NCBI RefSeq assembly: GCF_030345095.1
Contig: NZ_CP128360.1
Coordinates: 2,356,001-2,420,000, forward strand
DNA from: Solwaraspora sp. WMMA2056
GTDB taxonomy: Bacteria > Actinomycetota > Actinomycetes > Mycobacteriales > Micromonosporaceae
Direction: 5' to 3'
DNA: 64,000 bases
A program made the position numbers and the translations under genes. Below, piece after piece: positions 5,402 to 54,458 of the stretch. The stretch's first letter is position 1, and the number at the start of each line of letters is the position of its first letter. The notes below the pieces were generated by a model. It worked only from the letters and a program-made list of their open reading frames with translations, was not told the DNA's origin and searched no databases.

Positions 5402-6499
5402 ATGACCGTGTCCATTCGTCGATGTACGGCGGTGTTGGCGGCCGTGCTGCTCGCGGCGGCCACCTTGCTGGTCGGCAACAGCGGCCACGCCCAGTCGGCC
5501 ACCCCGGTCCGGGTGATGCCGCTCGGTGACTCGATCACCGACGGTTTCAACGTGTCCGGTGGCTACCGCATCGACCTGTGGCAGAAGTTCCAGGCCGGCG
5601 GCCACTCGGTGGACTTCGTCGGCTCCCAGTCCAACGGGCCGGCCAGCCTGCCCGACCGCAACCACCAGGGCCACTCCGGCTGGCGCATCGACCAGATCGA
5701 CGCCAACATCGTCAACTGGCTCCGGGCGTCGAACCCGCAGACGATCCTGCTGCAGATCGGCACCAACGACATCACCCAGAACCGTGACCTGCCGAACGCC
5801 CCGAACCGGCTCGCCGCGCTGATCGACAAGATCACCACCAACGCACCCGACGCGTACCTGTTCGTCGCCACGATCATCCCGGCCGGCTTCGCCGACGCTC
5901 AGATCCGCAGCTTCAACGCGGCCATCCCGCAGATCGTGCAGAGCCGGGCGAACGCCGGCCGCAAGGTGCACCTGGTGAACATGTACGCCGCGCTGACCAC
6001 CGCCGACCTCGCCGACGGCGTCCACCCGAACGCCACCGGGTACGGCAAGATGGCCACCGCCTGGTACAACGCGCTGACCGCCGTACCGGGCAGCCTCAAC
6101 CCGGGTGGGGTCACCCCGTCGCCGTCCACGCCGGGGCCGACCACCACGCCGGACACCTCGCCCGCGCCGTCCACCCCGCCACCGGTGACGACCCCACCAC
6201 CGGGCAACGGCGGCTGTACGGCGGCCGTCACGCTAAATCAGTGGAACGGCGGCTTCGTCGCCACCGTACGGGTGACCGCCGGCTCCGCCGGCACCAACGG
6301 CTGGACCGTCGCGATGACCCTGCCCGGCGGGGCGGCCGTCACCAACGCCTGGAACGCCGACCGTAGCGGCAACAGCGGGGCGGTCCAGTTCCGCAACGTC
6401 AGCTACAACGGCAGGATCGCCGCCGGGCAGTCGACCGAGTTCGGCTTCCAGGGCACCGGCAGTGGTTCCGGCATGACCCCGTCCTGCACCGCCAGCTGA
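5402..6499 (+). CDS. secreted SGNH/GDSL esterase with C-terminal CBM2
   Basis: 365 residues; ATG 5402 is preceded by AAGGAG at 5388-5393. A signal peptide (about residues 1-31, ending GHA-QS) is followed by an SGNH hydrolase domain to about residue 225. Block I is GDSITDG (Ser44), block III GTND (120-123) and block V DGVHPN (Asp205, His208), giving the complete catalytic set. A Thr/Pro/Ser linker (about 230-265) leads to a family 2 carbohydrate-binding module (about 268-365) with the expected Trp-containing NGGF, NGWTV and NAWNA landmarks. It probably deacylates plant polysaccharide such as acetyl-xylan while bound to cellulose or xylan, fitting the xylan locus further on. Confidence 0.9.
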   Translation: MTVSIRRCTAVLAAVLLAAATLLVGNSGHAQSATPVRVMPLGDSITDGFNVSGGYRIDLWQKFQAGGHSVDFVGSQSNGPASLPDRNHQGHSGWRIDQIDANIVNWLRASNPQTILLQIGTNDITQNRDLPNAPNRLAALIDKITTNAPDAYLFVATIIPAGFADAQIRSFNAAIPQIVQSRANAGRKVHLVNMYAALTTADLADGVHPNATGYGKMATAWYNALTAVPGSLNPGGVTPSPSTPGPTTTPDTSPAPSTPPPVTTPPPGNGGCTAAVTLNQWNGGFVATVRVTAGSAGTNGWTVAMTLPGGAAVTNAWNADRSGNSGAVQFRNVSYNGRIAAGQSTEFGFQGTGSGSGMTPSCTAS

Positions 6500-22196: not shown

Positions 22197-24957
<2,761 letters not shown>

Positions 24958-40446: not shown

Positions 40447-42427
<1,981 letters not shown>

Positions 42428-42431
42428 TGGA

Positions 42432-42444
42432 AACGGCTTCCGTT
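42432..42444. promoter_or_regulatory. Zur-like box 1 (before the COG0523 gene)
   Basis: AACGGCTTCCGTT, a 5-3-5 palindrome, 32 bp before the GTPase start, with flanks giving TGGAAACGGCTTCCGTTATC. It is one of five related sites at 42432, 43797, 45326, 49611 and 54413 with shared form AAYGR-NNN-YCRTT. Confidence 0.7.
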
Positions 42445-42475
42445 ATCATCTGATCCGAGATGAGGGGAGCCGTCC

Positions 42476-43795
<1,320 letters not shown>

Positions 43796-43796
43796 A

Positions 43797-43809
43797 AACG
43801 ATTATCGTT
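43797..43809. promoter_or_regulatory. Zur-like box 2
   Basis: AACGATTATCGTT, a perfect 6-1-6 palindrome; with flanks it reads TGAAAACGATTATCGTTA, close to the actinobacterial Zur consensus. Located just after the GTPase stop and 46 bp before the first repeat-protein gene. Confidence 0.85.
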
Positions 43810-43854
43810 AGCTCCCGGTGGTCCACCAGGGATCACCGGGAGGGAGTCTGTCCT

Positions 43855-44541
43855 GTGTTGACCGCAACCCGCCGCCGGGCCACCGGAGCGCTCGTCACCG
43901 GAGCCGCGATGATCGCCGCACTGGCCATCTCGGCGGCTCCGGCGCAGGCCCACGGCACCGGCCTGCCGGTGCTGCTGTCCGCCGGTCACGTCGACGTGAT
44001 CGAGGTGGAGTACGAGGACGGCGAGCTGGAGCTCGGTGTCCACGACGACACCGTCGAGCCCGGCGAGCACCGGCACCACGACGACGTGATCTTCGTCGTC
44101 AAGCCGCAGGCCAGGACCGTCGTCCCCAGTGACCCGGCCTTCGGATTCCTCGGCACCGCCGGCTCGCGGGTCTGGATCCTGCCCCAGGTGGAGAACGAGG
44201 ACCTGCTCTTCGCCGGCATCGCCACCGAGGAGCTCGAAGAGGGCGTCTTCGCCGGCGACTCGCTCGACCTGACCGTGCAGCAGCTGATCAGCGCGCCGTC
44301 CTCCGGCCAGGTCGCCGTCTACACCGAGGACCTGTTCGGCCAGCCGACCGTGCTGGCGAACAGCCGTGACGGGCTGCCGGACGTCGTCGACCTGCCGGTC
44401 GGCGAGCACCTGCACGCCAACTGGGCGTTCAGCAAGGCCGGCGTCTACCTGCTGAAGGTCAAGGCCAGCGCCACCCTGGCCGGCACCACGACCGTCGTCG
44501 AGTCCGACTCGGTCTACCTGCGATTCGTCGTCCTGCCCTGA
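43855..44541 (+). CDS. secreted surface-repeat (choice-of-anchor M type) protein
   Basis: 228 residues from GTG 43855 (GGGAGGGAG at 43838-43846). A signal peptide ends with AQA at about 32. The rest is one actinobacterial surface-repeat domain (TIGR03769-like): it opens with SAGHVDV, has a His-rich loop EHRHHDDVIFVV (71-82), GFLGTAGSRVWILPQ, and closes with EHLHANWAFSKAGVYLL (His185, His187, Trp190). No TM, LPxTG or lipobox is visible, so it should be released or wall-associated. His clustering and the Zur-like box suggest zinc binding, which is inferred. First gene of the anchored-repeat zinc locus. Confidence 0.82.
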   Translation: MLTATRRRATGALVTGAAMIAALAISAAPAQAHGTGLPVLLSAGHVDVIEVEYEDGELELGVHDDTVEPGEHRHHDDVIFVVKPQARTVVPSDPAFGFLGTAGSRVWILPQVENEDLLFAGIATEELEEGVFAGDSLDLTVQQLISAPSSGQVAVYTEDLFGQPTVLANSRDGLPDVVDLPVGEHLHANWAFSKAGVYLLKVKASATLAGTTTVVESDSVYLRFVVLP

Positions 44542-44569
44542 CCGGTATCAGATCGCAGAGGAGTCTTCC

Positions 44570-45226
44570 ATGATGAACGCCCCTACCCGTCGCTTGCTGG
44601 CCGGTGCCGCGTCGAGCGTCATCGCTGCGGCGCTCGCGGTCGCCGTACCGGCCGCGGCGCAGGCCACGGTCATCGAGTTGACCAGCGGCCACGTCGACGT
44701 CCTGGACATCGACCACGTCGCCGGTGGGCCGATCGAGCTCACCGTCGGTGACGACACCGGCTCGACGCGCGTCGAGCGGGATCCGTCCACCGTCGTCTTC
44801 GTGGTGCCGTCCGCCGCGTACACGGCCGTGCCGTCCAGTTCGGCGTGGTCGTTCCTCGGCAGCGGTGGGTACGCCTACGTCCTGCCGCAGACCAACACCG
44901 CCGGTCTGCTCTGGGCCGGCTGGGACACCACCGGTGTCGCCAGTGGTGCCCTGCAGTTCAACCGGGTCACGGTCAAGTTGACCGACGTGCAGGGCCCCGG
45001 CGGCTTCAGTGTCTTCACCGCCTCCGGCGGCACGCCCACCGTGCTGTTCGACAGCGGCAACGGGCTGCCGGACAGCCTGAACGTCAACCGCAACACCCAC
45101 GCCCACGTCAACTGGGGCTTCGACGCTGCCGGCACCTACGTGGCGACGTTCGAGGTCAGCGGCGTACGGACGTCGAGCGGCCAGACGGTGAGCGCCACCG
45201 AGGAGTTCACCTTCGAGGTCGGCTGA
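44570..45226 (+). CDS. secreted surface-repeat (choice-of-anchor M type) protein
   Basis: 218 residues, ATG 44570 or 44573 (GCAGAGGAG upstream). Signal peptide about 1-32. One repeat domain: TSGHVDVLDI, WSFLGSGGYAYVLPQ, LWAGWDTTG, GPGGFSVFT, then NTHAHVNWGF (His177, His179, Trp182). It lacks the extra His-rich loop of the preceding paralogue, and has no anchor. It is 28 bp downstream of that paralogue and followed by a terminator-like stem, so the two form a small Zur-type operon. Confidence 0.82.
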   Translation: MMNAPTRRLLAGAASSVIAAALAVAVPAAAQATVIELTSGHVDVLDIDHVAGGPIELTVGDDTGSTRVERDPSTVVFVVPSAAYTAVPSSSAWSFLGSGGYAYVLPQTNTAGLLWAGWDTTGVASGALQFNRVTVKLTDVQGPGGFSVFTASGGTPTVLFDSGNGLPDSLNVNRNTHAHVNWGFDAAGTYVATFEVSGVRTSSGQTVSATEEFTFEVG

Positions 45227-45264
45227 CCCCTCGGCTCACGGTGGGTCGGCGTCTGCCGACACGT

Positions 45265-45309
45265 CGTCCGGCCGGTGCTGATCCGCACCTCTTCGGCACC
45301 GGCCGGACG
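45265..45309 (+). terminator. stem-loop after the second repeat protein
   Basis: Perfect 14-bp GC-rich stem (45265-45278 with 45296-45309) and 17-nt loop, before Zur-like box 3. Confidence 0.7.
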
Positions 45310-45325
45310 CCGGAACGACTATGAC

Positions 45326-45338
45326 AACGGTTATCGTT
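45326..45338. promoter_or_regulatory. Zur-like box 3 (before the zinc ABC operon)
   Basis: AACGGTTATCGTT within TGACAACGGTTATCGTT, one step from the perfect box 2 palindrome. It lies 48 bp before the receptor GTG start and immediately after a terminator, consistent with an independent promoter for the ABC operon. Confidence 0.82.
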
Positions 45339-45386
45339 TGCGTGCTACCCTCCGGTGCGCGGAGACGATGGGGAGCAGGTGGGACA

Positions 45387-46961
45387 GTGCGCGTACGGGG
45401 GCTCGTCGGGTCGATCCTGCTGGCCGTCGGCCTGACCGGCTGCGCGGCACCGCCGACGCTGAGCGCCACCGACGACCGCCTCCAGGTCGTCACCACCACC
45501 GGCATCCTGCGGGACCTGGTCGACAACGTCGGCGGCGACCGGGTCGCGGTCGCCGCGCTCGTCCCCGACGGCGCCGACCCCCACTCGTACGAGCCGTCGC
45601 TGCGCGACGTGCGCAACGTCGTCTACGCCGACGTCGCCTTCAGCAACTATCTGCTGCTGGAGGAGCACGCCATCATCAAGGCACTCGACGCCAACCTGCC
45701 CGACGGCGTACCGAACATCTCCCTCGCCGAAGGGGCCGTCAAGTACGCCGCCGAGATCATCCCGCTGGTCGAGGACGTCGCGCTCGACACCATCTGGCTC
45801 GGCATGCGGGTACGGGGCACCGGCGAGACCTACGGCGCCGACCGGGCCTCCGACGTCCTGCTGCAGAGCACCACCGTGACCGGCCCCGGCACCATGGCCG
45901 CCTACCTCACCGAGTCGTTCGGCAACCCGGCCGTCTACCTCGACTCGGCCGACGGGTTCGACGCAGCCACCGGCTACCGGGACGACACCGCCACCCTGCC
46001 GCCGGACGCCCACACCCACATGAGCTGGGCGTTCACCGAGCCCGGCGTCTACCGGCTCACCATGTCGGCGCGGCTGGCGGTCACCCCCGACAGCCGCCCC
46101 GTCGCCCTCGGGGAGCAGACCTTCACCTTCGCCGTCGGCGTCGACCCGCACAGCGTGCCCGGGATGGCCGGCGTCGACGTGCTGCGCGGCGGACACGCCG
46201 ACATCACCGTTGACCTCGACGCGGCGGCGCGCGGCGAGCCGTCGCTCTACCTGTTCGCCGACCCGCACGGCGCCGGCGAAGCCCACCAACACGTGCACGA
46301 CCCGGCCGACACCGTCATCGAGGTGCCGAACAAGGCCCTCGCCCAGGTGCCGGCCGGCCGGGACTTCCGCTTCCTCGGCCGCCCCGGCACCGAGATCTTC
46401 CAACTGCCGCAGGCGGTGCTCGGCAAGCACGTGCACGGCGAGATCGACCCGCACCTGTGGCAGAACGTCCGCAACGTCATCGCGTACACCGAGCTGATCC
46501 GCGACACGCTGATCGACGTCGACCCGGCCGGGGCCGCTGAATACCGCCAGCACGCCACCGCCTACATCACCGAACTGTCGGCGCTCGACGACCACGTCCG
46601 CCAGACCATCGCCCGGATCCCACCCGGCCGGCGGCACCTGATCACCACCCACGACGCGTTCGGTTACCTCGGGGCCGCGTACGACGTGCAGATCTCCGGC
46701 TTCGTCACCCCGCACCCGGCGGCCGAGCCGAGCCTGGCCGACCGGCGTCGGCTCACCGAGACGATCCGCAACCTGCGGGTGCCGGCGGTGTTCCTGGAAC
46801 CCGGCCTGCGGTCGCGGTCGTCGACGTTGACCGAACTCGCCGACGACCTCGACGTACGGGTCTGCGAGATCTACGGCGACACGTTCGACGACCGGGTGAC
46901 CAGCTACGTCGAGCTGATGCGGTTCAACGCCGAGTCGCTGCTCGACTGCCTGGCACCTTGA
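45387..46961 (+). CDS. ZnuA-like receptor lipoprotein with inserted surface-repeat domain
   Basis: 524 residues from GTG 45387. Lipobox LTGC (Cys19). Residues about 30-130 and 350-524 form a cluster A-I metal-binding protein with the ZnuA ligand positions His66 (DGADPHSYEP), His356 (EIDPHLWQNV), His422 (TTHDAFGYLG) and a late acidic Asp (about 498). Between them lies an insertion of about 220 residues containing the surface repeat (DAHTHMSWAFTEPGVYRL, 207-224) and a second His-rich part (HGAGEAHQHVHDP). This matches the anchored-repeat-type ABC substrate-binding family (TIGR03772). The normal His-rich loop of ZnuA is thus replaced by a whole repeat domain. Probable zinc or manganese receptor; zinc is favoured by the Zur-like box. 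Confidence 0.9.
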   Translation: MRVRGLVGSILLAVGLTGCAAPPTLSATDDRLQVVTTTGILRDLVDNVGGDRVAVAALVPDGADPHSYEPSLRDVRNVVYADVAFSNYLLLEEHAIIKALDANLPDGVPNISLAEGAVKYAAEIIPLVEDVALDTIWLGMRVRGTGETYGADRASDVLLQSTTVTGPGTMAAYLTESFGNPAVYLDSADGFDAATGYRDDTATLPPDAHTHMSWAFTEPGVYRLTMSARLAVTPDSRPVALGEQTFTFAVGVDPHSVPGMAGVDVLRGGHADITVDLDAAARGEPSLYLFADPHGAGEAHQHVHDPADTVIEVPNKALAQVPAGRDFRFLGRPGTEIFQLPQAVLGKHVHGEIDPHLWQNVRNVIAYTELIRDTLIDVDPAGAAEYRQHATAYITELSALDDHVRQTIARIPPGRRHLITTHDAFGYLGAAYDVQISGFVTPHPAAEPSLADRRRLTETIRNLRVPAVFLEPGLRSRSSTLTELADDLDVRVCEIYGDTFDDRVTSYVELMRFNAESLLDCLAP

Positions 46962-46971
46962 GGAGGCATGA

Positions 46972-47913
46972 GTGAAGTCGATTGGCCTGTCGATGGCCGT
47001 GTCCGCGCTGCTGGCGATGACGCTGGCCGCCGCCCAGCCGGCATCGCCCGCCGCCGCCCAGCCCGGGTCGCCCGACCCGGCGTTGGACCAGTCGATCGCG
47101 CCGGACCTGCCGGTCGCCGACGGACCGGCGGTGCTCGACGCCGGTCACGTCGACCTGGGGCCGCGCTACGTCGACGACGAGTGGACCCTGCTGATCCACG
47201 ACGACGCCGCGCAGCCGGTGTGGCGGGACCCGGACCGGACCGTGCTGCGGGTCACCGACGCCGCGCTGCGGGCCGTCCCGGACGATCCGGTGTACGGCTT
47301 CCTCGGCGTACCGGCCGGCACCGACGTGCACGTGGTGCCGCAGGTGCAGCACCCCGACGTGGTCTGGGTCGGCTGGAACACCCAGGACCCCCGGGTGATG
47401 CAGACCATCGACCGGGGCGTGACCCTGGAGCTGGCCGACGTGGACGGTCCCGGCGAGGTCGTCATGTACCTGCAGGACGGCACGTTCAGCGAACCGCAGG
47501 TGCTGTGGCGTTCCGCCGAGCCGCCCGGCCAGCCGATGTGGGTCGAGGTCAACACCCACACCCACGCCAACTGGGTGTTCACCGCCCCCGGCGTGTACCT
47601 GGTCGCCGTGCGGGTCAGCGCCGACCTGGTCGGTGGCGAGCAGGTCTCGGCGACCCGGCACCTGCGGTTCGCCGTCGGCGACGCCACCAGCCCCGACGAC
47701 GCGCTCGCCGCGCAACCCGGCGAGGTGGCGGCCGCGCCGCCGCCGGCCGGTACGGACGACGCCGCGCCGGCCGACGACACCGCCGGTGGCGGGCCGTGGC
47801 TGGTCGTCGGCCTCGTCGTGGTCGCCGTCGGGTTGGCCGGCGCGCTGGTCGTCGTGGTGCTGCGCGGGCGGGCGGTACGCCGCCGGGTCGAACAGGAGCG
47901 TACGCAGTCGTGA
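46972..47913 (+). CDS. membrane-tethered surface-repeat protein
   Basis: 313 residues from GTG 46972 (GAGGAGG just upstream, 10 bp after the receptor stop). Signal peptide about 1-30, one repeat domain (LDAGHVDLGPRYVDDEW ... YGFLGVPAGTDVHVVPQ ... VNTHTHANWVFTAPGVYL; His196, His198), an Asp/Pro/Ala linker and a C-terminal TM helix (about 276-297) with an Arg-rich tail. It is therefore held at the outer face of the membrane, beside the ABC importer whose genes flank it on both sides. It ends with a GTGA overlap with the ATPase. Confidence 0.87.
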   Translation: MKSIGLSMAVSALLAMTLAAAQPASPAAAQPGSPDPALDQSIAPDLPVADGPAVLDAGHVDLGPRYVDDEWTLLIHDDAAQPVWRDPDRTVLRVTDAALRAVPDDPVYGFLGVPAGTDVHVVPQVQHPDVVWVGWNTQDPRVMQTIDRGVTLELADVDGPGEVVMYLQDGTFSEPQVLWRSAEPPGQPMWVEVNTHTHANWVFTAPGVYLVAVRVSADLVGGEQVSATRHLRFAVGDATSPDDALAAQPGEVAAAPPPAGTDDAAPADDTAGGGPWLVVGLVVVAVGLAGALVVVVLRGRAVRRRVEQERTQS

Positions 47914-48665
47914 CCGCGCTCGCCGTACACGATCTCGACGTCGACCTCGGCGGCCGCCCGGTGCTGCGCGGCGTCGGACTGCACGTCGACCCGGGGGAGC
48001 TGGTCGGGCTGGTCGGGCCGAACGGGGCCGGCAAGACCACCCTGCTGCGCGCGGTGCTCGGGCTGATCCGAATTCGGTCCGGGCAGGTGCTGGTCGACGG
48101 GGTGCCGAGCCGGCCGGGGCGGTGTGCGATCGGGTACGTGCCGCAGCGGCACGAGTTCGCCTGGGAGTTCCCGATCTCGGTGCAGGAGGCGGTGCTCAGC
48201 GGCCGTACCGGTCGGATCGGCCTGCTGCGGCGACCGGGGGCGGCCGACTGGCGGGCCACCGCCGAGGCGATCGACCGGGTACGCCTGGGTGACCTGCGTC
48301 GCCGGCCGGTCGCCGAACTGTCCGGCGGCCAGCGCCAGCGGGTGCTGGTGGCCCGCGCGTTGGCGCTGCAGCCGGCGTTGCTGCTGCTCGACGAGCCGTT
48401 CACCGGGCTGGACATGCCGACCCAGGAGCTGCTCGGTGAGCTGTTCACCGGGCTGGCGGCCGAGGGCACGCCGTTGTTGATGACCACCCACGACCTGATC
48501 GGCGCGATGGACGCCTGCTCCCGGCTGGTGCTGCTCAACCGGCGGGTGATCGCCGAGGGCAAACCGACCGAGCTGTGCGACCCGCAGCTGTGGATGCGGA
48601 CGTTCGGGGTCAGTGAACGGTCACCGTTGCTGCGTCTGGTCGGCGCGGGGGAGGGCGAGGGCTGA
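47910..48665 (+). CDS. zinc-type ABC ATPase (ZnuC-like, anchored-repeat family)
   Basis: 251 residues from GTG 47910. Walker [16 protein letters not shown]-loop VPQRHEF, signature LSGGQRQRVLVARAL, Walker B LLLLDEPFTGLD and the H-loop TTHD are all intact. The Q-loop QRHEFAWEFPISV is typical for the metal-ABC (TroB/ZnuC, TIGR03771) group. Coupled to the tethered repeat protein upstream and, by a one-base TGATG overlap, to the permease. Confidence 0.94.
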   Translation: MTALAVHDLDVDLGGRPVLRGVGLHVDPGELVGLVGPNGAGKTTLLRAVLGLIRIRSGQVLVDGVPSRPGRCAIGYVPQRHEFAWEFPISVQEAVLSGRTGRIGLLRRPGAADWRATAEAIDRVRLGDLRRRPVAELSGGQRQRVLVARALALQPALLLLDEPFTGLDMPTQELLGELFTGLAAEGTPLLMTTHDLIGAMDACSRLVLLNRRVIAEGKPTELCDPQLWMRTFGVSERSPLLRLVGAGEGEG

Positions 48666-49606
48666 TGCCGATCACCGAGTTCATCGCTGACCTGTTCAAC
48701 CCGGATCTGGCGTTCCTGCCGAAGGCGCTGCTGATCGCGGTCATGTCCAGCGTGGTCTGTGGCGTGGTCGGCTGCTACGTGGTGCTGCGCGGGATGGCGT
48801 TCATCGGCGACGCCGTGGCGCACGCGGTCTTCCCCGGGCTGGCGGTCGCCTTCGTACTGCAGGGCAGCCTGGTGCTCGGCGGCGCGGTCGCCGGGATCGT
48901 GACCGCGTTGCTGATCGCGGTCTTCGCCCAGCGGCGCCGGCTGAAGGAGGACTCCCTGATCGGGGTGTTCTTCGTGGCCGCCTTCGCCCTGGGCATCGTG
49001 ATCATCTCGCAGGCACCGGGGTACGCCGGTTCGCTGCAGCAGTTCCTGTTCGGTTCGATCACCGGCATCCCGGACCGGGACCTCTACACGGTCGGCTTCA
49101 CCGGTCTGGCGATTCTCGCGGTGCTGTTCCTGCTGCACAAGGAGCTGGTCGCGGTCAGTCTCGACCGGGAGTCGGCCCGGTCGGTCGGGTTGCCGGTGTT
49201 CTGGTTGGACATCGTGCTGTACGTGCTGGTCACCCTGGCCGTGGTGATCTCGTTGCAGACGATCGGCAACATCCTGGTCCTGGCACTGCTGATCACCCCG
49301 GCGGCGGCGGCCCGGCTGCTCACGGACCGGCTCGGCGTGATGATGCTGCTCGCCCCGGTGATCGGCGGCGGCTCGGCGCTGGTGGGGCTGTACCTGTCCT
49401 GGAGCTACGACCTGCCGGTCGGCGGCACGGTCGTGTTGGTCGCGACGGCTGTCTTCCTGCTCGCCTGGGTCTTCGCCCCCCGCCACGGACTGCTCGCCCG
49501 CCGTCGCCGGGAACCGGACGAGGCGCCGGACCGGGAGCCGGGCACAGGGCAGGAGTCCCAGGTCACACCGGCGTCGGCAGTGGTGGCCGAACGGCCGATA
49601 GGTTAA
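48665..49606 (+). CDS. zinc-type ABC permease (ZnuB-like, anchored-repeat family)
   Basis: 313 residues from ATG 48665. Eight or so TM helices of the ABC-3 family, with the RGMAFIGDAVAHAVFPGLAVAF coupling motif and LVALLITPAAAARLLTDRL-type segment. The C-terminal tail (about 40 residues) is acidic and Pro-rich. Completes a ZnuABC-like set with the two preceding genes; one transport operon is implied from 45387 to here. Confidence 0.93.
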   Translation: MPITEFIADLFNPDLAFLPKALLIAVMSSVVCGVVGCYVVLRGMAFIGDAVAHAVFPGLAVAFVLQGSLVLGGAVAGIVTALLIAVFAQRRRLKEDSLIGVFFVAAFALGIVIISQAPGYAGSLQQFLFGSITGIPDRDLYTVGFTGLAILAVLFLLHKELVAVSLDRESARSVGLPVFWLDIVLYVLVTLAVVISLQTIGNILVLALLITPAAAARLLTDRLGVMMLLAPVIGGGSALVGLYLSWSYDLPVGGTVVLVATAVFLLAWVFAPRHGLLARRRREPDEAPDREPGTGQESQVTPASAVVAERPIG

Positions 49607-49610
49607 TGAA

Positions 49611-49623
49611 AACGGTTGTCGTT
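49611..49623. promoter_or_regulatory. Zur-like box 4
   Basis: AACGGTTGTCGTT with flanks ATGAAAACGGTTGTCGTTACG, directly after the permease stop and 78 bp before the WxL-like gene, giving that cluster its own promoter. Confidence 0.82.
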
Positions 49624-49700
49624 ACGGTGTGGCGGGGCTCCCGCCCCGTCACGACCACGCCCCGCACCGGTCCGCGGTGCGGGCGAGGGGAGGAACAACG

Positions 49701-51170
49701 ATGAGTTCGACAGGTGCCCGCAGGTTCGCGGCCCTGGCCGCAGCGGCGGTGATCGCCGGCGGCGTGCTGCTGGCGCCGACCGCCGCGGCCGCCGCCGACA
49801 AGGTGGTGCTCGCCAAGGGCCACACCGACGCGGTCGACATCCACTACCACGACGGCGAACTGTCCCTGGAGGTCCACGACGACACGGTCAGCCCGTCGGT
49901 CAGCCACGACCCGGCCGACGTGATCTTCCAGGTGCTGCCCGAAGCCGCGATGGCGGTGCCGGACGACCCCCGCTTCGCCTTCCTCGGCCCGGCCGGCTCG
50001 CAGATCTGGCTGCTGCCGCTCACCCAGGACCCAAACCTGCTCTGGCCCGGCTGGAACACCACGACCCTCGGTGCCGGTACCTTCGCCGGTGACCAGGTCC
50101 AGTTGAGCCTCGTCGACGTCGCCGGCCCCGGCAACGTCTCGGTGTTCACTCAGGACAGCTTCGGCAGCCCGCTGATGAAGTTCCGCAGCGACGACGGCCT
50201 GCCGGACACGATCACCGTACCGATCCGCACCCACGCCCACGCCAACTGGGCGTTCAGCGCCGAGGGCGACTACACACTCACCTTCCAGGCCGACGCGACC
50301 CTGACCGACGGCACCACCGTCAGCACCGGCCCGGTCGACTACTCGTTCGTCGTCGGCGAGCTCGGCGGCACCGGCCCGGACACCGTACTGAGCATCGCCG
50401 GCATGGCCGACGAGTACCAGCCCGGCGACACCGTCACCCTGCAGGCGGTGCAGACCCCGCAGACCGCGCTGGACCACTACCACTGGTTCAGCCGCTGCCC
50501 CGGATCCGACGACTTCGCCATCATTGCAGGCGAGGCCGGCGCGTCCTACAGCTTCACCGCCACCCGTGAGCTCAACGCCTGCGAATACCAGGTGAAGCTC
50601 TACGACGACAACCACAGCGTGGTCGCGACCAGCGCGGAGGTCTGGCTCTGGGTGGCCTTCACCTCGACCGACCCGAGCGCCTCGCAGACCATCACCGCGT
50701 CCATCGACCCCACCCAGGGCGCGCTGGTCATCAGCGTCGACCCGGACGACCGCAGCGTCGTCCTGCCACCGGCGCAGCTGACCAGCAGCGGTGACAGCTG
50801 GGAGAGCACCGGGACGCTGCGTCCGGTGACCGTCACGGACACCCGGGCCGGCACCCCCGGCTGGAGCGCCTCCGGCCAGCTGCCGGAGACCTTCACCGGA
50901 CCCGACGGTGCCACCTTCAGCTCCGGCTACCTCGGCTGGACTCCGCAGGTGGCCAGCCAGTCCACCGGTCAGGGCGTGGTGGCCGGACCGGTCGTCGAGC
51001 CGTACGTCGTCGGCGTCGGCGGTGGGCTCGGCAGCAGCGCCGTGCTCGGCTCGGCGCCGACCGGCGCCGGCCGGGGCACCGCGACCCTGGGTGCCGGTCT
51101 GCAGCTGCGGCTGCCGACCGAGACCGCACCCGGCACCTACACCGCGACCCTCACCCTCACCGCGATCTGA
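49701..51170 (+). CDS. surface-repeat protein with C-terminal WxL-like domain
   Basis: 489 residues from ATG 49701 (GGGGAGGAA upstream). Signal peptide about 1-32; a repeat domain (about 34-215: AKGHTDAVDIHYHDGEL, RFAFLGPAGSQIWLLP, RTHAHANWAFSAEGDY with His178 and His180); an Ig/PKD-like domain (about 225-330) with two Cys; and a C-terminal domain (about 335-489) with SGYLGWTPQV and ending in TYTATLTLTAI. The last part matches the WxL wall-binding domain layout, and the next gene encodes a WxL-interacting type protein. It is thus a non-covalently wall-bound version of the repeat. Zur-like box 4 lies 78 bp upstream. Confidence 0.8.
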   Translation: MSSTGARRFAALAAAAVIAGGVLLAPTAAAAADKVVLAKGHTDAVDIHYHDGELSLEVHDDTVSPSVSHDPADVIFQVLPEAAMAVPDDPRFAFLGPAGSQIWLLPLTQDPNLLWPGWNTTTLGAGTFAGDQVQLSLVDVAGPGNVSVFTQDSFGSPLMKFRSDDGLPDTITVPIRTHAHANWAFSAEGDYTLTFQADATLTDGTTVSTGPVDYSFVVGELGGTGPDTVLSIAGMADEYQPGDTVTLQAVQTPQTALDHYHWFSRCPGSDDFAIIAGEAGASYSFTATRELNACEYQVKLYDDNHSVVATSAEVWLWVAFTSTDPSASQTITASIDPTQGALVISVDPDDRSVVLPPAQLTSSGDSWESTGTLRPVTVTDTRAGTPGWSASGQLPETFTGPDGATFSSGYLGWTPQVASQSTGQGVVAGPVVEPYVVGVGGGLGSSAVLGSAPTGAGRGTATLGAGLQLRLPTETAPGTYTATLTLTAI

Positions 51171-51185
51171 CGATCGCGCCCGGTG

Positions 51186-51228
51186 ACGGGCCGGGCGACG
51201 GCACCGTGCCGGTCGTCGCCCGGCCCGT
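51186..51228 (+). terminator. stem-loop between the WxL-like gene and its partner
   Basis: Perfect 15-bp stem (51186-51200 with 51214-51228) and 13-nt loop. Since the next two genes have no other evident promoter, it may be a partial terminator that lowers their expression. Confidence 0.6.
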
Positions 51229-51260
51229 CCCGCCCCCTCCGCGAAACGGACCCACCCCGC

Positions 51261-52376
51261 ATGCGTACGCCAGCAGCCCTGCTCGCCGGACTCCTCGTCG
51301 CCGCCGTCGCGGCGACCGGCCCGGCCACCGCAACGGTCCCGGCCGGATCGCCGCGCCACACGCCCGTCGCGGCGCAGTCGCTCACCTGGGGTGTCGCCCC
51401 GTCCAGCCCCGACGGACCGAACGGCCGGCCGGCATTCGAGTACAAACTGGACCCGGGCGCCACCCTCACCGACTACGTGGCGATCACGAACCACTCCGAC
51501 CAGCCGATCACCCTCGACGTGTACGCCAGCGACGCGTTCACCACCGAACAGGGCGGCTTCGACCTGCTGCCCGCGACCGGGGAACCGGTCGACGTCGGTT
51601 CCTGGGTCACCTTCGAGTCCCGCACCTTCACCGTGCCGTCGACGTCGCGGCTGGACGTACCGTTCACCATCGCCGTACCGGACAACGCCACCCCTGGCGA
51701 CCACCCCGGCGGCATCGTCGCCTCACTCGCCGCCACCGGCACCGACGCCCAGGGCAACCAGGTGGCCGTCGACCACCGGGTCGGCTCGCGGATCTACCTG
51801 CGGGTCACCGGAGAACTGCAGCCGGGACTGGACATGGTGGATCTGTCGACGACGTACGACGGCACCTGGAACCCGATCGGCGGGGGCACCGTCACGACGA
51901 GCTTCACCGTCCGCAACACCGGCAACGTCCGGCTCACCGGGCGCCCGCAGCTGACCGTCACCGGACCGTTCGGGCTGGCCGGGCGCAGCGTCGCGGCGGA
52001 TCCGCTGCCGGAGATCCTGCCCGGTGACAGCTTCCGGACCACGATCAGGGTCGACGGCGTACCGCCGATGTTCCGGCTCGGTGCGCGACTCACCCTCGCA
52101 CCGACCGCCGTCACCGACGAGGTGCTCGACCCGGCGCCGGCGACCGTGACCCGTGAGGTCGGCCTGTGGGCCGTCCCGTGGTCGCAGCTGGTGATCCTGC
52201 TGGTCGTCGCACTGGCCGGCTGGCTGGCCGCCGCCCGACGTCGCCGCGCCCGACGGCGCCGGGCCGCCCAGCTCGAACGGGCGGTCGCCGCCGCCCGCGA
52301 ACAGGGCCGGGCCGAGGCCGCCCGCGACCGCGCGGTCACCGATGCCAATCACGAGAAGACGACCCAGGGAACCTGA
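51261..52376 (+). CDS. WxL-interacting (DUF916-type) membrane-anchored wall protein
   Basis: 371 residues from ATG 51261. Signal peptide about 1-25; the DUF916-like peptidoglycan-binding domain (about 40-165: QSLTWGVAPSSPDG, a Tyr-Lys-Leu strand, LTDYVAITNHSDQPITLDVY, PDNATPGDHPGGI); a second beta domain; one TM helix (about 306-325) and a very basic helical cytoplasmic tail. In firmicutes DUF916/DUF3324 proteins hold WxL proteins at the wall; here it follows a WxL-like gene directly. The ATG of the next gene overlaps its stop (TGATG). Confidence 0.8.
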   Translation: MRTPAALLAGLLVAAVAATGPATATVPAGSPRHTPVAAQSLTWGVAPSSPDGPNGRPAFEYKLDPGATLTDYVAITNHSDQPITLDVYASDAFTTEQGGFDLLPATGEPVDVGSWVTFESRTFTVPSTSRLDVPFTIAVPDNATPGDHPGGIVASLAATGTDAQGNQVAVDHRVGSRIYLRVTGELQPGLDMVDLSTTYDGTWNPIGGGTVTTSFTVRNTGNVRLTGRPQLTVTGPFGLAGRSVAADPLPEILPGDSFRTTIRVDGVPPMFRLGARLTLAPTAVTDEVLDPAPATVTREVGLWAVPWSQLVILLVVALAGWLAAARRRRARRRRAAQLERAVAAAREQGRAEAARDRAVTDANHEKTTQGT

Positions 52377-54031
52377 TGACGACGACGATCCACCGCCCGA
52401 CCGGTACGGCGACCCGACGCCGGTACGCCGCGCTGTTGGCCGTATCGGCGCTGGCCGCGGCCCTGACCGTGCCGGCCCAGGTGACCGCCGCGCCGGCGAC
52501 CGATCCGCCGGCGTTAGTGAATCCGGCAGGTGCCGACCTGGTAGCGGTCACGCTCGACGGCGCAACGCTGTCGGTGGTCACCCGCGAGGTGTCCGGGCCC
52601 GACCGGAAGCCGGCGAGGGTGGTTCTCGGGCCGACCGGTGGGGTGGTGGTGCGGACCCCGGACCATCCGGCGTTCCGCTTCCTCGGCGCGGCCGGCCGGC
52701 CGGTGTGGGCACTGACCGGTGGCGACACCGACTTCCCGTACCTCGACACGCGGGCGGTGCCCGCAGGGGCGGTACGCGGTGACACGGTCGATTTGTCGTT
52801 GCGCGAGGTCGACGGCCCGGGGGGATTCGCCGCGTACACCCTGGGTGGGCTCGGCCAGCCGACGCCGCTGTTCGGCACCCTCGACGCCATGCCGCGTACC
52901 GCCCGGCTGCCGGCCGCGACCAGGACCGGCGGGGTGGTCTGGCTCTTCGACGCGGCAGGCGAGTACCGGCTGACGCTGTCGGCGGCGGCGACCCTGGCCG
53001 ACGGCACCGTGGTGACGGCCGACGCCGACTACCGGGTGCTGGTGCCGCCGCTCGATGCGGCCCGGCCCGCCCTCGATGATCCGCGCCCGGCCCCGGCCCC
53101 GGCTCCCGTTCCTGCGGCGGAGCTGGCCAGGGCATCGGATGCCGCCACCGGCGGCAGCGCGCCGCGTGGCGCGGCGGCGACCGGTCCCGCCGCGCAGCCG
53201 CTGGCGGCGGGTGCCGCGCCGGCGGCGACCAGCGCCGCGCCGGCGCTCGCCGCCGCGGCGCAGCAGGACGGGTCACGGGTGGTCATCGACGACGGTCACG
53301 TCGACATGGGCCCGGAACTCGCCGGTGCGGACTGGACCATCCGGCTCAAGGACGACACCGTCTCACCCCCGGTGTGGCGTGAGCTCGCCGACGTGGTGCT
53401 GCACGTCAAGGACAACGCGAAGATCACCGTTCCGGACAACGCCGATTTCCTCGGTGCCCCCGGTGACGAGGTGTGGCTGCTGCCGCAGGGGCAGCGCTCC
53501 GGGATCGTCTGGCCGGGCTGGAACACCCAGCATCCGTCGGTGGTGGCCGGGGTCCGTGGCCAGGTCACCTGGACCTTGGCCGGCGTCGACGGTCCCGGCC
53601 GGTTCGTCCTGTTCCTCACCGGGTCGTTCGGCGAGTCCGAGGTGCTGTTCAACTCGGCGGACCGGCTGCCACAGCGACTCGATGTGCCGATCAACACGCA
53701 CGCGCACGGCAACTGGGCGTTCAGCGAGCCGGGTATCTACCGACTGGCCTTCGAGATGTCGGCTACGACGACGTCGGGGTCGACGGTCACCGACTCCCGG
53801 ACGCTGACCCTGGCGGTCGGTGACGCGACGGACCCGGACACCGGTTTCGGACCCGGGGGCGGGAATCCGGGTGGCGGCGACAACCCGGGTGGCGGTGGTT
53901 CCGGTGACGACAGACTGCCTCGGACCGGATCGTCGTGGCATCTGCCGGCCACCGGCGCCACCCTGCTGATCGCTGGCGTGCTGGTGCTGCTCGCCGCGCG
54001 TCGACGGCAGCCGACTCAGTGCTCGTCGTAG
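52376..54031 (+). CDS. sortase-anchored protein with two surface repeats (TIGR03773-like)
   Basis: 551 residues from ATG 52376. Signal peptide about 1-39; repeat 1 (about 45-230) keeps FRFLGAAGRPVWAL but has lost the opening GHVD and the HxH (it reads RTGGVVWLFDAAGEYRL); a long Ala/Pro linker (about 230-295); repeat 2 (about 300-485) is complete with DDGHVDMGPEL and NTHAHGNWAFSEPGIYRL. A Gly-rich spacer leads to LPRTG (514-518) and LPATG (523-527), a hydrophobic helix and an Arg tail, so it should be covalently wall-anchored by sortase. Its 3' end overlaps the His-rich gene on the other strand by 16 bp. Confidence 0.88.
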   Translation: MTTTIHRPTGTATRRRYAALLAVSALAAALTVPAQVTAAPATDPPALVNPAGADLVAVTLDGATLSVVTREVSGPDRKPARVVLGPTGGVVVRTPDHPAFRFLGAAGRPVWALTGGDTDFPYLDTRAVPAGAVRGDTVDLSLREVDGPGGFAAYTLGGLGQPTPLFGTLDAMPRTARLPAATRTGGVVWLFDAAGEYRLTLSAAATLADGTVVTADADYRVLVPPLDAARPALDDPRPAPAPAPVPAAELARASDAATGGSAPRGAAATGPAAQPLAAGAAPAATSAAPALAAAAQQDGSRVVIDDGHVDMGPELAGADWTIRLKDDTVSPPVWRELADVVLHVKDNAKITVPDNADFLGAPGDEVWLLPQGQRSGIVWPGWNTQHPSVVAGVRGQVTWTLAGVDGPGRFVLFLTGSFGESEVLFNSADRLPQRLDVPINTHAHGNWAFSEPGIYRLAFEMSATTTSGSTVTDSRTLTLAVGDATDPDTGFGPGGGNPGGGDNPGGGGSGDDRLPRTGSSWHLPATGATLLIAGVLVLLAARRRQPTQCSS

Positions 54032-54309
54032 TGGTCACCGTGTGCGGCGTGCCGGTGCCCGGCGTGGACGAAGTCCTGATGGTCGCCGTGCGGCACCATC
54101 TCGTGACCACAGTCCGGCCCGTGGGTGTGGTCGCCATGTGACTCGGCTGTCACGTGCTGGTCCGTCCCGCACTCGTCCCAGTGCCCGGCGTGCTCGTGGT
54201 GGACATGCCCGTCGTGCAGGTAGTCCAGGTGTCCGTCGTGGCTGACGGTGGCGTGTCCGCAGGTCGCGGAGTGGCTGTGCGGGTGCTCGGTGTGCACTGC
54301 GTGGGACAT
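54016..54309 (-). CDS. histidine-rich, probably zinc-binding small protein
   Basis: 97 residues from ATG 54309 (GAGGAGG ahead), 27 of them His, no signal peptide. Two tandem 31-residue units, 17-47 and 67-97, share C-G-H-x-x-V-x-H-x-x-H-x-D-x-x-H-x-G-H-x-H-x-x-H-x-x-H-x-D-E-(C/H). Related short His-rich proteins in actinomycetes are often misannotated as zinc permeases although they have no TM segment. It may store or buffer zinc in the cytoplasm. Unlike the flanking genes, it has no Zur-like box directly at its promoter but a different 32-bp palindrome over its leader, which may make it zinc-induced rather than zinc-repressed. Confidence 0.8.
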
Positions 54310-54353: not shown

Positions 54354-54412
54354 CTTCGGTGGCCATCCGGCGTGGCCGCGCCCGACTCTCGCGGGTGGCG
54401 ACGCCTTGTTAA

Positions 54413-54425
54413 AATGACTATCATT
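54413..54425. promoter_or_regulatory. Zur-like box 5 (before rpmE2)
   Basis: AATGACTATCATT, a perfect 5-3-5 palindrome with flanks TTAAAATGACTATCATTATC, 34 bp before the L31 start. L31 paralogues lacking zinc ligands are classical Zur targets, which supports the whole set of boxes. Confidence 0.88.
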
Positions 54426-54458
54426 ATCAAGTGTTGCCAGGAAGGCTGGTTCCGGAGG

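Follow-up and report, generated by a model that had tools for sequence, protein, structure and literature searches.

In the 7.0-Mb single-contig genome of Solwaraspora sp. WMMA2056 (G000) we analysed a stretch of 64,000 nucleotides, called the window here, which carries an ordered plus-strand zinc locus at 42476-54031, with rpmE2 next to it downstream (Table 1). The focus of this work is a pair of adjacent genes in that locus, encoding a secreted protein with a WxL-like C-terminus (the 49701 product) and a membrane protein of the DUF916/WxLIP type (the 51261 product). Gene models were revised using frame, start codon and homology. Both genes are present on the plus strand, at coordinates slightly different from those in an earlier note made from the sequence, whose observation is confirmed with corrections and whose interpretation, a pair that holds proteins on peptidoglycan, is partly supported. 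We consider it likely that this is a zinc-capture and uptake locus, probably Zur-regulated, in which the 49701 product is kept at the envelope by a divergent WxL/WxLIP pair.

The TIGR03770, TIGR03771, TIGR03772 and TIGR03773 families are all matched above cut-off in this one cluster, which identifies the anchored-repeat type of zinc ABC system and bears out the coupling to zinc transport claimed earlier. The HxD/HxH motif is present in all six repeat-bearing proteins of the locus and is reversed in the substrate-binding protein (HxH 209, HxD 270), where a lipobox-like Cys can be read near the N-terminus. The gene that follows the pair had been taken for a sortase-type protein; its product is instead a TIGR03773 substrate of sortase, with LPRTG/LPATG and a C-terminal hydrophobic stretch in its sequence and a Gram_pos_anchor match below cut-off. 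The four sortase matches of the genome all lie outside the window. An open reading frame (ORF) of 565 amino acids (aa) at 46968-48665, resembling a fused ATPase, was rejected: for the first ~315 aa it runs, rich in Arg and Ala, in the wrong frame across the choice_anch_M gene with a transmembrane (TM) helix at 46972-47913.

Table 1. Genes, domains and putative regulatory sites of the zinc locus, with the supporting matches (window coordinates).
Feature	Position	Strand	Evidence
CobW-family GTPase, closest to ZigA metallochaperone	42476..43795	+	NF038288 552.6 bits, below cut-off 600; PF02492
Secreted choice_anch_M protein, no evident anchor	43855..44541	+	NF038134 158.9 bits on longer frame from 43792; HxD 45, HxH 185
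Secreted choice_anch_M protein, no evident anchor	44570..45226	+	NF038134 168.6 bits; HxD 41, HxH 177
Zinc ABC substrate-binding protein, ZnuA-like, inserted repeat	45387..46961	+	TIGR03772 785.1 bits on frame from 45321
choice_anch_M protein with C-terminal TM helix, ZnuE-like	46972..47913	+	NF038134 198 bits
Zinc ABC ATPase	47910..48665	+	TIGR03771 366.6 bits, cut-off 268.8, on longer frame 46968-48665
Zinc ABC permease	48665..49606	+	TIGR03770 469.7 bits, cut-off 296.8
Secreted choice-of-anchor M protein, 489 aa, WxL-like C-terminus	49701..51170	+	NF038134 189.9 bits; TIGR03769 64 bits
WxL-like C-terminal domain, 169 residues	50661..51167	+	PF13731 15.1 bits, sub-threshold; family hhalign; AlphaFold2 (AF2) pLDDT 93.4
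DUF916/WxLIP-type partner, 371 aa	51261..52376	+	PF06030 47.1 bits
Long DUF916 beta-hairpin, model residues 111-147	51696..51806	+	Strands 111-126 and 132-147 in AF2 model
LPXTG-anchored TIGR03773 surface protein, ZnuG-like	52376..54031	+	TIGR03773 385.1 bits, cut-off 190.3, frame from 52166
rpmE2, type B ribosomal protein L31	54459..54737	+	NF002462 133.9 bits, cut-off 86
Zur-like box upstream of cobW/ZigA-type gene	42425..42445	.	15/21
Zur-like box upstream of first choice_anch_M gene	43790..43810	.	17/21
Zur-like box upstream of substrate-binding-protein gene	45319..45339	.	15/21
Zur-like box upstream of WxL-like gene	49604..49624	.	18/21, highest in window; position weight matrix 34.0 bits
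Zur-like box upstream of rpmE2	54406..54426	.	16/21

The 49701 product reads as a signal peptide, one zinc-type domain (HxD at residue 41, HxH at 178), an Ig-like linker and the WxL-like domain; described earlier as a repeat protein, it holds only one choice-of-anchor M domain. A family alignment of 64 rows was assembled from the window domain and the 63 of 85 domains left by a redundancy filter (row L031 is without its last residues), and its profile was compared by hhalign with five Enterococcus WxL domains from three plasmids, three of the domains coming from one plasmid. The two profiles aligned with a probability of 94, an E-value (E) of 1.4e-7 and a score of 51.3, compared with 9.0 for the reversed profile, at most 14.4 for 20 column shuffles, 21.1 for DUF916 and 17.7 for choice_anch_M. 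The Pfam WxL family PF13731 (gathering score 25 bits) was matched at E ≤ 0.1 by 47 of the 64 aligned domains, the best at 2.6e-8, and when ten relatives were scanned whole, five matched at E ≤ 0.01 and two of the ten passed the cut-off (L101, 56.1 bits; L123, 27.9 bits). Columns D60, R62, L91, W93, P95, Y160 and T165 are conserved in 64/64 rows and W68 and G92 in 62/64. In all 86 matches above 60 bits the domain ends 0-6 aa before the end of the frame.

The 51261 product consists of a signal peptide, DUF916, a NEW3-like second domain, a TM helix and an Arg-rich tail, in agreement with the DUF916-like membrane protein expected at this place. PF06030 matches it with E 3e-12 (cut-off 27.3 bits) and matches all 53 aligned DUF916 sequences, 40 of which also match the NEW3-like family PF10633. 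A profile of 12 DUF916 sequences finds the solved EfmWxLIP1 chains from sequence alone (E 2.6e-7). The best Foldseek matches of the AF2 model (pLDDT 92.8) are 9i25_C (E 6.5e-12) and 9i1y (E 9.8e-12), and VIA ranked the same two entries first, with Z 13.7 and 12.8 and the next unrelated entry at 10.9. Superposition on 9i25_C extends over 227 residues of model positions 5-270, both domains of the WxLIP fold being covered, with a root mean square deviation of 9.8, a large value from which it follows that the domain angle may differ from that of 9i25_C. The C-terminal TM segment appears as a helix at 272-317 in the model and as a hydrophobic stretch followed by RRRR in the sequence. By analogy with the role proposed in PMC10599100, the long hairpin of the DUF916 domain is a candidate to provide the strand that enters WxL.

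Scanning genomes with a DUF916 profile yielded 329 relatives. The top 80 form the locus set used here, sorted into zinc (33), HtaA (21) and neither (26); as ranking was by likeness to a zinc-weighted query, a biased bait, the 33 of 80 are not a frequency. A WxL-like domain was found with the family profile in 78 of the 80 loci; the two misses have DUF916 at the edge of a contig. In 77 loci the WxL-like gene precedes DUF916 on the same strand, at no more than 450 bp from the DUF916 match in 64 and further away, up to 1.7 kb, in 13; in L067 it lies elsewhere in the locus on the opposite strand. Nine zinc-group loci have it ~1.5 kb upstream, leaving room for intervening genes. After length filters 74 of the 80 loci were available for a comparison of partner distances, which correlated with a Spearman coefficient of 0.69 (maximum 0.15 in 500 permutations), a value to which shared descent contributes. 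The class of the nearest neighbour agreed for 68 WxL-like and 69 DUF916 domains of the 74 loci. Furthermore, in six genomes with two loci (one of seven was dropped) the nearest relatives of both partners were of the same class as the locus itself for 11 of the 12 loci, the exception being L143. Among 121 genomes of the host's order, with at most the best 30 candidates per genome scored, WxL-like matches occurred in 26, DUF916 in 18 and both in 17; one genome, G068, has a sub-cut-off DUF916 match and no WxL-like match.

The co-occurrence proposed in the earlier note was borne out in the same order sample: the TIGR03770 permease (E ≤ 1e-60) is present in nine of the 121 genomes and eight of these carry DUF916 in the same cluster. 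The corresponding Fisher p of 4e-7 is overstated, because six of the nine permease genomes belong to the window's family (15 listed genomes). In G084 the DUF916 gene starts one contig and the WxL-like gene, with its own Zur-like box, ends another. Record titles place the 33 zinc loci in Salinispora, Micromonospora, Plantactinospora, Verrucosispora, Actinoplanes and its segregates, Glycomyces, Jiangella and Nakamurella; tblastn matches are missing for the permease in L070 and for the substrate-binding protein and permease in L084.

Five sites in the 64 kb agree with a Zur-like consensus at 15 or more of 21 positions, all of them upstream of locus genes or rpmE2, and no site at that threshold arose in 100 first-order Markov simulations. 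Since the consensus was drawn up after the sequence had been read, a test across loci weighs more: a matrix built from the five window sites scored at least 20 bits in 33/33 zinc loci and in 1/47 others (L102). These sites suggest that the zinc locus is probably Zur-regulated. A DtxR-like consensus, taken from general knowledge, was found at 15/19 or better in 21/21 HtaA loci (at least 16 in 20 of them), 0/33 zinc loci and 3/26 others. Whole loci were scanned, so not every box sits at the WxL-like gene; in L111 the best DtxR-like site is at 97, far from the WxL-like gene at 6167. The window holds one 15/19 DtxR-like site, at 1807, outside the zinc locus. It also encodes a FUR-family protein (24608-24889, minus strand, 74 bits), and an Rfam scan of the whole 64 kb returned 0 matches. 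Between the LPXTG gene and rpmE2 lies a minus-strand ORF (54019-54309) of 97 aa, among them 27 His, 17 Asp/Glu and 3 Cys. It matched no Pfam or NCBIfam family, and tblastn against 41 zinc loci found nothing at E ≤ 1e-3; it is possibly a zinc-storage peptide and possibly spurious.

Several results speak against the proposed pair and its tie to zinc. The last 170 aa of the 49701 product alone reach E 0.023 with PF13731, under the cut-off, and WxL was not reported when the whole protein was scanned against Pfam up to E 1. Only 17 of the 64 domains have W-x-L at the first motif, though its Trp is kept in 62, and the second WxL Trp is gone, with no Trp within the last 12 residues in 64/64; this second Trp is also missing from one of the five Enterococcus reference domains. 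In structure searches with the AF2 model of the domain, 9i25_A was not among the matches listed (the best 50 of 964 from Foldseek and 50 of a second look), which is not evidence of another fold, and none of the listed matches reached E ≤ 0.001. On the side of the partner, DUF3324 was not reported in the 51261 product up to E 1, nor listed for the 53 aligned sequences up to E 0.01, so that from the DUF916/DUF3324 check proposed earlier only PF06030 emerged. Nine of the 121 order genomes have WxL-like matches and no DUF916 at E ≤ 0.001, hence pairing is not absolute, and G120 has a zinc permease cluster without DUF916. In a phylum sample of 296 genomes, 28 carry DUF916; three pass the permease cut-off, and of these only the window's own genome has DUF916 (absent from G328 and G359). 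With weaker permease matches counted, 13 phylum genomes include two with DUF916 and one with both in the same cluster; in G301 a permease-like match below cut-off and DUF916 are on separate contigs. The zinc coupling of DUF916 is therefore rarer outside the host's order, and since the zinc permease also occurs without DUF916, the pair supplements a more widespread type of zinc cluster.

The sub-threshold Pfam score would also suit an unrelated Ig-like fold that came to resemble WxL by convergence. Matches of the domain model in Foldseek and VIA were pilins, GH123 and other beta-sandwiches with Z ≤ 8.5, as this alternative would have it. When the PDB was searched by sequence with profiles of the WxL-like domain, only weak matches with assorted names came up. 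A resemblance to pilins would fit donor-strand completion; such Z values are common, and we do not use it as support. We nevertheless regard an unrelated Ig-like domain as very improbable, in view of the profile-profile match to Enterococcus WxL with its null controls, the relatives above the Pfam cut-off and the nearly constant DUF916 partner. Thus, as profile homology stands while the second motif is lost, the C-terminal domain is, by its sequence, a member of the WxL superfamily by descent and non-canonical by signature; the WxL-like end proposed earlier holds as distant homology, not as a canonical domain.

G000 carries the module elsewhere too. Its second DUF916 (G000:C1:2216363) follows a protein with an HtaA domain (PF04213, 143 bits) and a WxL-like end (PF13731, 19.7 bits, below cut-off) in locus L032 (G000:C1:2207000-2225500), where the divergent neighbours are a periplasmic-binding protein, a FecCD permease, an ATPase and a heme oxygenase, the ABC genes being of HmuTUV type. 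This heme counterpart has DtxR-like sites of 17/19, upstream of the HtaA pair, and 14/19. Another protein of the locus matches neocarzinostatin below the threshold. Of five WxL-like matches outside the window locus, three are weak (one with an internal stop) and have no Zur-like site of comparable score nearby. A third WxL-like protein (L144, G000:C1:6704389-6707430, minus strand) is a 1013-aa frame whose N-terminal domain is of the choice_anch_M type (147 bits); a Zur-like box scoring 27.7 bits closely precedes its first Met. No DUF916 lies near this orphan gene, the genome having two DUF916 matches in all, and its product may dock in trans to the DUF916 protein of the window.

Cargo of other kinds was also seen. 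In Oerskovia (L109, 5620-7575) the protein next to DUF916 has an alkaline phosphatase domain (PF00245, 181 bits) before its WxL-like end; enzymes, too, are carried by the module. In L053 and L055, on Clavibacter and Cellulosimicrobium plasmids, a small WxL-like protein and DUF916 lie near GH43 or LamG-type proteins, which recalls the sugar-linked clusters of firmicutes. With 26 of 80 loci neither zinc nor HtaA, one partner fused to a phosphatase domain and two plasmid pairs beside GH43 enzymes, the pair might be a general surface-display module without a metal role, its link to zinc being incidental neighbourhood. On one point this explanation is correct, for the WxL-like/DUF916 module is not zinc-specific. 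As a whole we find it unlikely, given metal-type cargo in 54 of the 80 loci (with the bias of the bait), regulator boxes that match the cargo with one crossover (L102), and the orphan gene for a zinc-domain/WxL-like protein, preceded by a Zur-like box of its own.

We accordingly retain a zinc locus in which one trap is held by the WxL/WxLIP pair. The N-terminal HxD/HxH domain of the 49701 product would bind zinc and its WxL-like beta-sandwich would dock on the DUF916 domain of the 51261 product, the hairpin of which probably supplies a strand that completes the sandwich. The TM helix and Arg-rich tail would hold the 51261 product in the cytoplasmic membrane, and its cargo would therefore reside in the membrane/wall zone, close to the ABC importer. 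The locus would then present graded zinc traps, the same domain being free in two proteins, tethered by a TM helix, anchored through LPXTG, inside the substrate-binding protein and WxL-docked. Alternatively, the WxL-like domain itself could bind peptidoglycan in the manner of firmicutes, DUF916 merely stabilising a true wall-bound complex. Besides WxL homology, this has in its favour the first Trp retained in 62/64 domains and the cell-wall binding of Enterococcus WxL, the title subject of a 2007 paper cited in PMC9772566. We think it improbable, as the second WxL motif is lost in 64/64, even if one of the five Enterococcus domains also lacks that Trp, and as the TM helix and Arg-rich tail suit membrane insertion. 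With half of the WxL signature lost, and with that helix and tail, the evidence points to a membrane tether more than to the hold on peptidoglycan suggested by the earlier note. Members of the host lineage are known mostly from soil and sea. For this reason, and because of the long hairpin and the Arg-rich tail after the helix, we favour a tether in the bacterial membrane over insertion into a host membrane.

A broader proposal, which we put forward tentatively and with a little less than even confidence, is that actinobacteria possess a general docking module for metal capture, a membrane-tethered WxLIP variant receiving interchangeable traps by beta-strand complementation. In one cell such a module would serve zinc (HxD/HxH) under Zur and heme (HtaA) under DtxR/IdeR, and distant orphan cargo encoded megabases away would be recruited to the same receptor. 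If this is true, it offers sortase-independent anchoring where such routes lack explanation and places the WxLIP helix in the bacterial, not the host, membrane. The pair described here extends WxL/WxLIP anchoring to actinobacteria with nutritional cargo, offers a possible means of retaining zinc and heme traps without sortase, and bears on the insertion site of the WxLIP TM helix.

Our searches of the open-licence literature listed no paper linking DUF916 or WxL to actinobacterial zinc or HtaA systems; DUF916 genes have been noted near metal-binding Ang-2 domains (PMC12537917). The closest described system is the znu cluster of Corynebacterium diphtheriae (ZnuAECB, ZnuF, ZnuG; PMC12445094, PMC6711530), a Zur-regulated anchored-repeat ABC system with several HxD/HxH surface proteins, among them TM (ZnuE-like) and LPXTG (ZnuG-like) members, and with a reversed motif in the substrate-binding protein (PMC12445094). 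A zinc cluster of this type has thus been characterised in C. diphtheriae; in this comparison of descriptions neither WxL nor DUF916 is mentioned in the main texts of the two papers. There, thermal shift suggested zinc binding by ZnuE, ZnuF and ZnuG, His-to-Ala variants still bound, and ZnuF and ZnuG were reported to lower growth in some backgrounds (PMC12445094). ZnuF gets to the wall independently of sortase, and its published description includes a C-terminal TM segment, not a WxL-like domain (PMC12445094). WxL/WxLIP anchoring has been described as mainly a firmicute and gut-commensal trait linked to host contact (PMC9772566, PMC10599100), and an AF2-based proposal has the WxLIP hairpin inserted into a gap of WxL and the TM helix entering the host membrane (PMC10599100). 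With these clusters (PMC10599100, PMC9772566; PDB 9i25) the window pair shares a C-terminal WxL-type domain on the cargo, an adjacent DUF916 protein with a TM helix and the fold match to 9i25_C. It differs in the lost second WxL motif, in a NEW3-like domain, by sequence, in place of DUF3324, in having one WxL-like protein at the locus instead of at least two adjacent ones, and in cargo of metal-binding type. The second pair of the genome resembles the HtaA heme-uptake proteins of actinobacteria, with its HtaA domain beside heme oxygenase and HmuTUV-type ABC genes. Corynebacterial HtaA occurs in a TM-anchored form, whereas the HtaA protein of Solwaraspora ends in a WxL-like domain.

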